DNA of 44,702 nucleotides from Myxococcales bacterium (GTDB lineage: Bacteria > Myxococcota_A > Polyangia > Nannocystales > Nannocystaceae). The position numbers and the translations under genes were made by a program. The stretch is from NCBI GenBank assembly GCA_014240065.1, contig JAAZXR010000033.1, positions 295-44,996 on the forward strand, given 5' to 3'. The notes under the pieces are model-generated. The model made no database searches. It saw only the letters and a program-made list of their open reading frames with translations, and was not told the origin of the DNA. This document shows, piece by piece, positions 40,903 to 44,702 of this stretch; position 1 is the first letter of the stretch; the number at the start of each line of letters is the position of its first letter.

Positions 40903-41073
40903 GTGGATGACCCCTCAACGGATCTCGCACGCACAAATACATCAAGTATCAATCTTGCGGTGCGCGATGTGACACGAGAGCCGCTGCCGCGCCATCTGGT
41001 GGGGTTTATCACGAGTGGGTCTGGAATCGTCTCCATCATATTGATGTACCGGTTCTTTAAGCACTTCTTTTGA
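40903..41073 (+). CDS. Paralog A, 5' half: membrane span, ends at TTT TGA C
   Basis: A 56-codon frame from a GTG: an acidic/Thr-rich N-terminus (VDDPSTDLARTNTSSINLAV) then one hydrophobic span HLVGFITSGSGIVSIILMY and a basic/aromatic end RFFKHFF. It stops at TGA (41071-41073). The next frame reads on as paralog A without a gap of more than a codon, and a +1 shift at TTTT (41068-41071) gives the complete two-span topology seen in paralog B. The start is uncertain, as no ribosome site is seen. It may be part of a frameshifted gene or a programmed product. Confidence 0.45.
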   Translation: MDDPSTDLARTNTSSINLAVRDVTREPLPRHLVGFITSGSGIVSIILMYRFFKHFF

Positions 41074-41113
41074 CGCGGGTGCGCACCCGTTCGATCTCGC
41101 GCTCCATGCGACG

Positions 41114-41662
41114 GTGTGCGCGCTCGTGGTTGCCATGCTCTACCGGCGTTTTTCCTTCTTGCGCAGGATGGCGCTGCCTCCCAGATCGCAGGCGGCGCTG
41201 GCATCCCAGGACGGCGGCGCCGAAGAGACGCTGCCGCACGCGCTGCGACCGCTGGCGGCGGACCTGCGTGTGCTCACCGCGAGCTTCGAGTCGCTGCACA
41301 CCACAGGCATCACTAGCTTCGGATCCGCTGTAGATGTGTCTGCGATGCAGTCTGCGGAGCTGGACCTCTGGCAGTGGATGTCGGCGATGGATTCCCTTGA
41401 GGCGCCGGCGAACGCGGTGGCCCTCGATCGCGGAGCCTCGTTGGACACCCTGCGGAGCCTGCTTGCGAAGCACGTTCCCCCCGGAAGCATGACGCAGACC
41501 GCTGGCCTTGCGTTATCGCCGTCCGCGCGTCCAAGCGTTTTTGATCGGTTGCGACCGAATCGTGCAGCCCGCCTCCAGATTGTCCACGTGCGCGCGGTGA
41601 TCATGGAGTTGCGCCGCATCGACGACGCCCTGCACACCGACACCGGTCAGCCCTACCGGTAG
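41114..41662 (+). CDS. Paralog A, 3' half: second span and helical domain
   Basis: A 182-residue frame from a GTG at 41114, following from 41074 if read in the +1 frame. The N-terminus is a hydrophobic span (VCALVVAMLY) with a basic FSFLRRM, like the second span of paralog B. The soluble part matches paralog B over its length: LPHALRPLAADLRVL against LPTALRPIARELTSI, AELDLWQWMSAMDSLEA against LHEFGAWLSRWDALDE, and the end VRAVIMELRRIDDALHTDTGQPYR against LRAVIMELRRLDDALHTGASQLYR. The frame by itself could start at GTG 41114, but has no ribosome site, so it is best read with the 5' half. Confidence 0.6.
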   Translation: MCALVVAMLYRRFSFLRRMALPPRSQAALASQDGGAEETLPHALRPLAADLRVLTASFESLHTTGITSFGSAVDVSAMQSAELDLWQWMSAMDSLEAPANAVALDRGASLDTLRSLLAKHVPPGSMTQTAGLALSPSARPSVFDRLRPNRAARLQIVHVRAVIMELRRIDDALHTDTGQPYR

Positions 41663-41701
41663 CCGGGGGAGCACACATATGGGCGGGCGGCCTTGCCGAG
41701 C

Positions 41702-41711
41702 GGGGGGGGGG
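41702..41711. repeat. G10 homopolymer upstream of paralog B
   Basis: Ten consecutive G bases 124 bases before paralog B. Such tracts slip during replication and also in sequencing; either a phase-variable promoter spacing or a read error is possible. Confidence 0.8.
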
Positions 41712-41760
41712 CGCCCAACGAAGTGTGGCCGAAGCACGTCGGCGACCCCGAGAGGAGGCA

Positions 41761-41808
41761 ATGAACGTCGATTTTGTGTGCGCGGCGCGCACTTGTCTCC
41801 CGGAATAG
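41761..41808 (+). CDS. Possible 15-codon upstream ORF of paralog B
   Basis: AGGAGG (41753-41758) is followed at short distance by ATG (41761) and a 15-codon frame with three Cys or Ala residues (MNVDFVCAARTCLPE), stopping at 41808, 27 bases before paralog B. It has the strongest Shine-Dalgarno sequence nearby. It may be a leader peptide or chance. Confidence 0.25.
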   Translation: MNVDFVCAARTCLPE

Positions 41809-41835
41809 TTCGCGCGAGGTGATGGTAGTAGGGTC

Positions 41836-42660
41836 ATGGTCATGGTCGTGGACGCGCCGGTGCCAACATCCCAATCAACGGGCCTTCGTGCGGCGATGGA
41901 GCCCAAGCCCCGAAAGCCAGAGCTCTCCGTGGCGCTGGTCCAGCGATACCTCCGTACGCGGGCTGGGAAACAGTCGGCTGGCTTGGCCGTGACGCTCGGC
42001 GTGTCGACGGTGGTCACGATGTCTGCATCGAGCTGGGGGTTGGCGGTGGCGATGGGCTGGTCGATGGTCGTCGCCATCGTCGGTACGTCCTTCGAGAATT
42101 ATCGTCGGTTTTTCGCGCTGGACCTACCGGCGCGGAGTCCCGCGGCGCTCGTCGCACCCTCGGACCCGGTGGTGGAGGAGCTCCCCACGGCGCTGCGGCC
42201 GATCGCGCGCGAGCTCACTTCGATCCTCTCGGGGTTGGAGTCGATCTTTGAGGAGACGTTCGCGCTGTTTGTGAGCGAGGAGTCCGGGTCTCCGATGGAC
42301 GAGGTGAACCTGCACGAATTCGGGGCGTGGCTGTCCCGGTGGGACGCGCTCGACGAGGAGGCGCTCGCGGTGGCCCACGCGCGGGGCTTTCGCCTCGACG
42401 AGCTGCGGGGGCTGCTGTCGAGGCAGCTCGCGCTGGAGCCCACGGCGGGCGACGGCATGCGCCTCGCGACGGGGCTTGCGGTCGCGAAGGCCCCGCCCAC
42501 ACAACGCGCGCCCAGGTGGTGGCGACGGGGCGGCTCCGCCGCTCGCAAAGCGAAGCAACAGACGCTCAAGGCCCAGGTCGAGCACCTGCGCGCCGTGATC
42601 ATGGAGCTTCGCCGTCTCGACGATGCGCTCCACACGGGCGCCAGCCAGCTCTACCGATAG
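41836..42660 (+). CDS. Paralog B: two-span membrane protein, unknown family
   Basis: A 274-residue protein with two hydrophobic spans at about residues 48-64 and 66-84, joined by a tight turn, then a soluble cytoplasmic helical domain. It has a Pro/Thr/Ser N-terminus. Characteristic motifs are ELPTALRPIARELTSILSGLES (116-135), GAWLSRWDAL (163-172), FRLDELRGLLSRQLAL (185-200), a basic Arg/Lys-rich loop (QRAPRWWRRGGSAARK), and the C-terminal VEHLRAVIMELRRLDDALHTG ending Tyr-Arg. These recur in paralogs A and D. No enzyme motif is visible; the Trp/Asp motif and basic segment suggest binding of lipid, nucleic acid or protein. The start is ATG with weak AGGG upstream. Confidence 0.7.
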   Translation: MVMVVDAPVPTSQSTGLRAAMEPKPRKPELSVALVQRYLRTRAGKQSAGLAVTLGVSTVVTMSASSWGLAVAMGWSMVVAIVGTSFENYRRFFALDLPARSPAALVAPSDPVVEELPTALRPIARELTSILSGLESIFEETFALFVSEESGSPMDEVNLHEFGAWLSRWDALDEEALAVAHARGFRLDELRGLLSRQLALEPTAGDGMRLATGLAVAKAPPTQRAPRWWRRGGSAARKAKQQTLKAQVEHLRAVIMELRRLDDALHTGASQLYR

Positions 42661-42822
42661 CGAGGTGAGATGCTGGCACGTGGGCTGGGGCTGGGCGGTC
42701 CTGGCGAGGTCCGTGGGCGCGGTGCGCGGGACTCGGATCCCGCCGCGTGCCGCCTCGACGGGTTGAGCGGGGTGGTCGCGGGGTGGCTTGCGCGAGGACC
42801 CTCGGGCTCGCACAATGGGACC

Positions 42823-43485
42823 ATGGGACGACGCGCAGGACCAACTGGAATTTCGACGGGGGTGCTCGGTGGACGCGGCTGGCGCTGGAAGCTGGCCGCC
42901 GTCATCGCGGGGGTGACGCTCACGTGGACCGCCTTTTGCCCTCAGGACTCGCCCGAGGAAGGGGACGCGGTCGAGGCGACCAAGGACCTGGTGAATCGCC
43001 CGTGGCTCAACCGCATGCCGACTGACGAGCGCGACACGATCTTTCATCTCGCGCTGCTCAAACACCCCAAGGGGCGGGTGGGCGCCGCCGGACATTCTTC
43101 GCAGTGGAGGCATCGCATCGAGGTGATGCGCTGGCGGCTCAAGGAGGGCAGGCTCGGCGTTCGGTTCCCCCAAGACGGCGCGAAAGGTGAGCTTGGTGTG
43201 AAGACGTGGAAGTGTGGGGGAGAGGCGCCCGCGCCGTTCGATTTGTGCCTTGAGATCTCCAACGACGATCGCGCCATGACCTTGTACAGCCGCGAGGACT
43301 GGGAGATTCGCGTGGATCCCAAGTCCGGTGCGCTCGCAGCCCCTGCATCGCCCGCGTTGCTTCCTGCCCACGCGGCGTTCGACATGGCGGACGTGGTGCC
43401 CCTGCTCGGCGCGCCGATTTCCGCAGCATCCCGGCAGGCCTCCGCGCCCGATGCGTTGGTACGACTGCTCGACGGCGCTCGATGA
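42823..43485 (+). CDS. Membrane-anchored beta-rich protein C in the paralog cluster
   Basis: A 220-residue protein from the ATG at 42823: a basic Gly/Arg N-terminus, one hydrophobic span (LAAVIAGVTLTWTAFC, about residues 24-39, possibly a signal anchor or lipobox-like AFC), and a soluble domain of beta pattern (HRIEVMRWRLKEGRLGVRFPQ, WKCGGEAPAPFDLCLEIS, MTLYSREDWEIRVDP) with a likely Cys pair. It has no clear similarity to the paralogs, but its stop overlaps the start of paralog D (ATGA), so it belongs to the same transcript. A calycin-like fold is possible. The frame is open from 42670, but the extra stretch is Gly/Arg-rich and unlikely. Confidence 0.65.
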   Translation: MGRRAGPTGISTGVLGGRGWRWKLAAVIAGVTLTWTAFCPQDSPEEGDAVEATKDLVNRPWLNRMPTDERDTIFHLALLKHPKGRVGAAGHSSQWRHRIEVMRWRLKEGRLGVRFPQDGAKGELGVKTWKCGGEAPAPFDLCLEISNDDRAMTLYSREDWEIRVDPKSGALAAPASPALLPAHAAFDMADVVPLLGAPISAASRQASAPDALVRLLDGAR

Positions 43486-44120
43486 TCGCGGTAGGCCCGG
43501 TGACGATCCTGGGGGTCGGGGTCGCCCTCGCGTGCGGCGTGGGCTCGCTCCTGGCCAACCGACGCTTGCAGGCGGGGGCGCGCTACGTCGCCGCGCACCG
43601 AGAGCACGGCGCGCTCTCCTTGGATCACCTCCCGGACCACATGGCGGCGCTGGGTCGTGAAGGGCGCCTGATTCGGGTGGCCTTGGAGGGCGTACAGTGG
43701 CAGCTGTCCTCGGCGGCCCGCGCCCGCGGACCCGACGAAACCTCGCCGCCGGGGCTGCTGCTCGCGGGTCTGCAGGTGCAGCTCGGGGAGTGGATGTGCG
43801 CGTGGGATCGCCTCAACACGCACGACCGGGACACGCTCCGGCAGCTCGGCGCGGACGTCGGGGGCCTCAAGGCGGTCCTGCGAGAAGAGGTGGGGCGGGG
43901 GCTGGATGGCGAAGACGCCATGGCGCTCGGCGCGGGGCTCCTCGTGCGCGAGAGTCACAGCGCGGCGACGCGCCTGCTCGCCCGCCGCGGCTCACCTGGA
44001 TGGCTCACCCGCAGTCGCCAACGGGACGCACGCCGGCAAGACAAGCACCTGGGACGCGTGCTCCATTGCCTCGTCGAGATCGAGGTCGCGATGCAGCGGA
44101 CGCCGCGGGCCTACCGATGA
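43482..44120 (+). CDS. Paralog D: one-span membrane protein of the same family
   Basis: A 212-residue protein with one N-terminal span (about residues 4-25, VGPVTILGVGVALACGVGSLL), then a helical domain sharing motifs with paralogs A and B: an LIRVALEGVQWQLSSA-type helix, LGEWMCAWDRLNTH in the place of the W-x3-WD motif, GGLKAVLREEV in the place of LDELRGLLSRQL, DAMALGAGLLVRES like DGMRLATGLAVAKA, a basic loop, and a C-terminal RVLHCLVEIEVAMQRTPRAYR also ending Tyr-Arg. The gene starts at ATG within the stop of gene C (4-base overlap). Convergent with the kbl-like gene, only 16 bases from its end. Confidence 0.7.
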   Translation: MIAVGPVTILGVGVALACGVGSLLANRRLQAGARYVAAHREHGALSLDHLPDHMAALGREGRLIRVALEGVQWQLSSAARARGPDETSPPGLLLAGLQVQLGEWMCAWDRLNTHDRDTLRQLGADVGGLKAVLREEVGRGLDGEDAMALGAGLLVRESHSAATRLLARRGSPGWLTRSRQRDARRQDKHLGRVLHCLVEIEVAMQRTPRAYR

Positions 44121-44136: not shown

Positions 44137-44702
44137 TTAGGCCGACAGGATGCCGAGCTCGCGGCCGCGCGCGGTGAAGGCTTGGATGGCGTGATCGATC
44201 TGGGCGTCCGTGTGGGCCGCCGAGAGCTGCACGCGGATGCGCGCTTGGCCCTTGGGCACCACGGGGTAGCTGAATCCGATCACATAGATCTTGTCTTTCA
44301 ACAGCGCGTCGGCGAGCGCGGTGGCGAGGCGGGCGTCGCCCAACATGATCGGGACGATGGGCGTGTCGCCGGGCTTGACCGTGAAGCCAGCGCCTTCGAT
44401 GCCGGCTCGGAACCGTTTGGTGTTGTGCTCGAGGGTGTCGCGCAGCGCCGTTGAATCGGAGATCATGCGCATCACCGAGAGGCTCGCCGCGACGATCATG
44501 GGCGCCAGCGAGTTGGAGAAGAGGTACGGCCGCGAGCGGTTACGCAGCAGGTCCACGATCTCTTGACGCGCGCTGGTGAAGCCGCCGGACGCGCCGCCGA
44601 GGGCCTTGCCGAGGGTCGAGGTGATGATGTCCACGCGGCCCATGGCGTCGCGGCCGCGCGCGGTGAAGGCTTGGATGGCGTGATCGATCTGGGCGTCCGT
44701 GT
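44137..44702 (-). CDS. kbl: Glycine C-acetyltransferase (partial, unreliable end)
   Basis: PLP enzyme Kbl (2-amino-3-ketobutyrate CoA ligase) of threonine degradation. Visible is the C-terminal half: [21 protein letters not shown], whose Lys forms the Schiff base, [13 protein letters not shown], and the C-terminal [21 protein letters not shown]. About 170 residues are clear; the rest lies beyond the window. The upstream reading (44648-44702) is a copy of the gene's own C-terminal codons, read in frame as [11 protein letters not shown] then joined to the MGRVDII segment, so the last 55 bases do not represent the true N-terminal half. Tdh, its usual partner, is not seen. Confidence 0.8.
44159..44213. 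repeat. 55-bp direct repeat, copy 1 (in kbl)
   Basis: Identical to 44648-44702 for exactly 55 bases; the match starts two bases before GCGGCCGCGC and ends at GTCCGTGT. The sequences before the copies differ at once. Offset between copies is 489 bases (163 codons). Confidence 0.95.
44648..44702. repeat. 55-bp direct repeat, copy 2 (window end)
   Basis: Same orientation as 44159-44213 and ends exactly at the last base of the window. A repeat of exactly k-mer size at a contig end is typical of a de Bruijn-graph assembly loop. Confidence 0.95.

Follow-up and report, generated by a model that had tools for sequence, protein, structure and literature searches.

A Tyr-Arg-ended membrane protein family of the Nannocystaceae, with a branch joined to ECF sigma factors

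Genes A, B and D at the contig end

The stretch of DNA analysed here, hereafter the window, comprises 44,702 nucleotides of a Myxococcales bacterium of the family Nannocystaceae (assembly GCA_014240065.1, contig JAAZXR010000033.1, positions 295 to 44,996). Its 3' edge is the end of a contig (C162) in a draft genome of 4.7 Mb and 235 contigs. Close to this edge are three genes on the same strand, designated A, B and D, whose products we assign to a previously uncatalogued, Nannocystaceae-restricted family, here called the YR domain. Their features are as follows, with the basis of each call in brackets.

40903..41073, + strand: possible 5' part of gene A (frame 1), with membrane span LVGFITSGSGIVSIILMYRFF, ending at TGA 41071-41073 (translation, hydropathy)
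41068..41074, + strand: frame break of gene A, TTTTGAC, where a +1 shift (one T dropped) joins the two parts (sequence inspection, GC by codon position)
41072..41662, + strand: main part of gene A, with a second membrane span and a cytoplasmic helical YR domain, ending ...TGQPYR (open reading frame call, translation, BLASTP, profile)
41836..42660, + strand: gene B, 274 aa, with a hydrophobic hairpin region and a YR domain, ending ...ASQLYR (open reading frame from ATG, BLASTP, profile)
43482..44120, + strand: gene D, 212 aa, with one membrane span and a YR domain, ending ...RAYR (open reading frame call, alignment of relatives, AlphaFold)

A sequence-only reading of this cluster had drawn A, B and D as three frames with shared motifs. 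The translations contain every motif that it cited (the LRPLA/LRPIA helix, WQWMSAMDSL, GAWLSRWDAL, GEWMCAWDRL and the YR end), and genes B and D are intact, as is gene C between them; the 760 nt drawn for gene A (40903-41662), however, do not form one frame. Frame 1 (VDDPSTDL...FFKHFF) ends at TGA 41071-41073. From 41072 the remainder continues in the following frame, and the two parts unite if a single T is left out of a TTTT run. An open reading frame was called in the second frame from a GTG at 41114 to 41662 (182 aa), and a start at this GTG would need no frameshift. The 5' part is weakly coding-like, with a GC content by codon position of 0.52/0.43/0.61, and GC at third codon positions reaches 0.79 in the main part of gene A and 0.85 in the long intact frame of gene B. 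The TTTTGAC sequence resembles a site of programmed frameshifting, and gene A has no ortholog with which it could be compared. Gene A would be either a frameshifted gene or a shorter one starting at about GTG 41114; in the former case, the break may represent an extra T from a sequencing or assembly error, a pseudogene or a programmed shift. Reading gene A by a four-letter code (TTTT as F) was rejected because later TTTT words would shift the frame too.

A family of YR-domain proteins in the Nannocystaceae

BLASTP analyses revealed 38% identity between genes A and B over 201 positions (5e-26), and the two are judged to be clear paralogs. Pairwise comparisons with gene D gave a weak match for gene B (4e-4) and an undetectable one for gene A (0.46). 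At the profile level, an A/B profile matched a profile of 14 D relatives, from which D had been left out, over 129 columns (hhalign P 7.6e-5), in a collinear alignment finishing YR-on-YR; with gene D added, P was 2e-7. The score of 37.1 compares with at most 22.2 in 300 column-shuffled controls and 16.6 in reversed ones. The proposal of three divergent paralogs thus survives both profile alignment and shuffled controls, and the A/B/D similarity is retained when properly aligned. All three proteins match the family profile collinearly, through HL...LE, W...L...G and C-terminal helix blocks.

Outside its own genome, gene B found no match among 58 relatives in a single-protein search, nor did it find one in the genome contigs, and a profile of the A/B pair had no match in 14 genomes, in a search run without a positive control. 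Gene D is the conserved, family-wide copy beside kbl, and A and B are a lineage-specific local pair, so that any joint A-B-D complex would be a local elaboration. Placing A and B within a YR subfamily by a tree was abandoned, as the branches were too long.

The motifs are not special to the cluster. A profile built from A, B and D identified members in 28 of the 29 genomes of the Nannocystaceae, with 1-7 scattered members per genome, including Nannocystis species such as N. exedens DSM 71 and N. poenicansa FL3; the genome without a member (G001) is 54% complete. These counts derive from open reading frames called by a simple longest-frame script; in some relatives the N-terminal start was chosen manually. 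In other genomes of the class, none of 261 had a member at 1e-4, an absence that holds at limited sensitivity because at most 8-11 candidates were scored per genome. A sample of the phylum yielded one weak, partial profile match outside the family (G356, 2.7e-5). With a wider profile, a fourth YR member was detected in the window's own genome (G000:C121:54112-54675; L125:5077-5682, minus strand). Its YR lies 12 residues from the end, and the same adjoining gene stands beside a relative in another genome (G007, L134).

In agreement with the sequence-only reading, which knew of no described family with these motifs, neither Pfam nor NCBIfam holds a model that fits the stand-alone YR proteins, A, B and D included. 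Pfam matches to MRP-L28 (gene B, 0.013), TMP_3 and DUF4381 involved one or two members each and were judged to be chance. PADLOC did not recognise the family apart from a marginal RmrT match of gene D (0.0041). Searches of PDB with sequence profiles returned only chance-level or designed helical proteins and a 56-residue GntR match at 0.0016, and Foldseek found no significant fold match in PDB (best E-value 0.43, none at or below 0.001). Neither the profile nor the fold searches gave a convincing PDB relative. The YR domain was found described nowhere in a literature search that did not cover the main classification paper of extracytoplasmic function (ECF) sigma factors, where a prior mention is possible. 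Characteristic of an entire family of predatory myxobacteria, multi-copy and absent from both Pfam and NCBIfam, the domain family would be a clean unknown for testing.

The YR domain comprises about 130 residues, is helical and follows either one N-terminal span or a two-span hairpin. The motifs cited earlier are preserved in the family-wide profile, foremost among them the C-terminal YR. In an alignment of 37 members, Y and R are the sole invariant columns. All 63 stand-alone members have YR near the end, 43 of them at the exact C-terminus, as in genes A, B and D, and 61 within three residues of it. This near-universal Tyr-Arg end offers a two-residue handle for mutagenesis. An AlphaFold model of gene D is all-helical, with a predicted local distance difference test score (pLDDT) of 80. 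Hydropathy identifies the spans of genes D and A, and at the threshold used the hydrophobic hairpin region of gene B counts as a single span; in each of the three, basic residues lie on the domain side. Lysine and arginine are richer after the span than before it in 49 of the 52 single-span members (mean 3.7 vs 0.5), and in most members with two spans, a K/R-rich segment lies ahead of the first.

Fusions to ECF sigma factors and a possible regulatory role

Scanning with the 37-member profile revealed 12 intact proteins, from 11 relatives, that continue from a YR domain through a linker into an ECF sigma factor. Of two further fusions, one runs off a contig end and the other has a broken frame.

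YR-ECF fusions, 11 Nannocystaceae genomes: L126, L127, L128, L131, L132, L149, L150, L152-L155, L159

N. exedens has two of them (L126 and L150). Matches of the family profile to the fusions reach E-values of 2.1e-20, all 12 keep YR at the end of the domain, and both Sigma70_r2 and Sigma70_r4_2 of Pfam were found in all five fusions scanned (L126, L127, L128, L131 and L132). Stripped of their membrane part, the fused domains still matched the D orthologs (E-value 3.3e-16, score 95.3); among 150 shuffles no score exceeded 20.3, and the reversed control scored 17.1. The AlphaFold model of one fusion displays the same helix order as gene D, and its linker (residues 187-227) has very low confidence, as expected for a disordered segment. 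No Pfam match to sigma region 2 or 4 was found in A, B or D.

Since the fused sigma factor must be cytoplasmic, the fusions place the YR domain in the cytoplasm independently of the positive-inside rule. With both lines of argument, established rules lead us to infer that the YR domain lies in the cytoplasm.

With moderate confidence, we read the YR protein as a non-enzymatic module of regulatory or adaptor type, cytoplasmic and tethered to the membrane, which usually stands alone and in some proteins would anchor a sigma factor. The YR domain would bind to itself or to partner proteins at the inner side of the cytoplasmic membrane, and in the fused paralogs it would keep the sigma factor there until a signal, a binding event or proteolysis sets it free. 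A regulatory role is likely in the sigma-fused branch, and the fusions offer a specific hypothesis for membrane proteins otherwise without a known function, namely the membrane tethering of a transcription factor.

Several observations weigh against this reading. The fusion model has a predicted template modelling score (pTM) of 0.38, and the arrangement of the domain relative to the sigma factor is not predicted. No span reaches the hydropathy threshold in 15 of 75 members, most of which have a shorter hydrophobic start. Genes A and B resemble the D family at the profile level only. The window's own genome contains four YR members and ordinary ECF genes, with no sigma fusion detected, which makes it unlikely that A, B and D serve there as accessories to a fused sigma factor. 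The genes around stand-alone members vary widely, including formate dehydrogenase, a PBP1-type enzyme, rubrerythrin, a tRNA synthetase and dnaG-rpoD-terC, and no common functional theme was found among them. In the regions scanned, stand-alone members had no ECF gene beside them, and the lone extra match adjoins a fused member. Regulation is therefore read from the fusion alone, and the biochemical function of the YR family is one that we infer.

A membrane-anchored protein with a cytoplasmic helical domain also recalls class I anti-sigma factors. In these, the sigma-binding domain usually lies ahead of the span, whereas the YR domain follows it, and no sigma gene adjoins the stand-alone copies. 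Pfam and NCBIfam scans of the YR members found no curated anti-sigma domain of the class I or zinc type. N-terminal spans with a helical soluble part also occur in DUF948 and DUF4381, to which isolated YR members gave weak Pfam matches (0.03 and 0.0033, respectively), seen in one or two of the 37 members and not family-wide.

ECF sigma factors with membrane-bound regulatory extensions have been described, including ECF36, with three to four N-terminal spans and DUF2275, as well as ECF48, ECF52, ECF53 and ECF243 IutY (PMC8999054). The YR-ECF fusions appear to resemble this kind in outline, since an extra domain of the same chain, N-terminal here too, ties the sigma factor to the membrane. They differ in having one span, a YR domain and a linker, with DUF2275 and zinc anti-sigma models unmatched. 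Most YR members, including A, B and D, carry no sigma factor, and the latter three, being without sigma regions, do not belong to this kind.

These likenesses raise the possibility, unlikely in our view, that the YR domain is an anti-sigma-like inhibitor, with fused copies acting in cis and the stand-alone A, B and D binding a free ECF sigma factor in trans at the membrane. It would agree with the presence of the same domain in fusions with ECF sigma factors, with the cytoplasmic, membrane-anchored position that class I anti-sigma factors share, and with the fused membrane-spanning anti-sigma domains known in ECF36, ECF48, ECF52 and ECF53 (PMC8999054). Zinc anti-sigma and DUF2275 models, however, gave no match, and the low-confidence linker comes with no predicted contact between domain and sigma factor. 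Moreover, anti-sigma genes usually adjoin their sigma gene, yet no ECF gene adjoins the stand-alone members in the scanned regions.

It is improbable that A and B arose by local duplication of a D-like gene and are now functionless, whether decaying or selfish, with gene A already a pseudogene. The frame break at 41071, the lack of A and B orthologs and the strong divergence of both genes from D would fit such a scenario. Yet both genes preserve the motifs of the family, with YR exactly at the end, and the third-position GC content noted above (0.85 over the long intact frame of B, 0.79 in the main part of A) is at odds with decay. The break itself may be a base-call error in a draft of 235 contigs, or gene A may start at 41114.

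The regulatory or adaptor module proposed above might be taken further. In a speculative extension that we consider doubtful, YR proteins at the inner membrane face would form a signalling network private to the Nannocystaceae, one branch of which tethers ECF sigma factors for controlled release, and members with and without a sigma factor would alike use the invariant C-terminal Tyr-Arg as a mark for recognition or cleavage.

Gene neighbourhoods, gene C and kbl

Two other genes lie next to D in the window.

42823..43485, + strand: gene C, a separate family with one N-terminal span and a conserved globular part bearing W/C/P/F motifs (alignment of relatives)
44137..44648, - strand: 3' part of kbl, aminotransferase class I/II (2-amino-3-ketobutyrate CoA ligase type), convergent with D (Pfam; cut by the contig end)

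As in the window, gene D orthologs are located near kbl in several relatives, and in two branches they have formate dehydrogenase or DUF1592/DUF1501 genes upstream. Several genomes have the D ortholog directly 3' of the formate dehydrogenase alpha subunit gene (L024, L027, L028, L102). Another YR subfamily, ending HPYRAVG, occurs between dnaG-rpoD and terC in Nannocystis (L094, L097, L101). At the contig end, the last 55 bases (44648-44702) exactly repeat 44159-44213; this is an artefact of the assembly end, and it distorts the kbl reading frame on its 5' side.

Gene C was rightly set apart from A, B and D, as it represents a family of its own and not a YR-domain protein. Its stop does overlap the start of D, in the ATGA at 43482-43485. 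Its own start is more likely the ATG at 42823 than position 42670, since relatives align from there. The family occurs in 27 of the 28 other Nannocystaceae genomes, the exception being the 54%-complete genome, and has no match in Pfam or PDB. In most relatives that keep both genes, C is far from D or on another contig; C upstream of D was seen only in the small-genome genus g11 (G019), in the order C, DUF1592, DUF1501, D.

The sequence-only reading had pictured a membrane complex of duplicated subunits plus gene C. Such a dedicated complex, encoded by the cluster and assembling A, B and D with C, is very improbable: four same-strand genes in a row, the ATGA overlap and the nearness of C and D in g11 speak for it, but relatives mostly keep C unlinked to D, A and B have no direct orthologs, and YR members are dispersed elsewhere in relatives.

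Within the gene C family, W, C, P and F residues are invariant (42823-43485, L040-L055). In some relatives, the gene C homolog is followed by genes for a ThiS-like protein and an aldehyde ferredoxin oxidoreductase.

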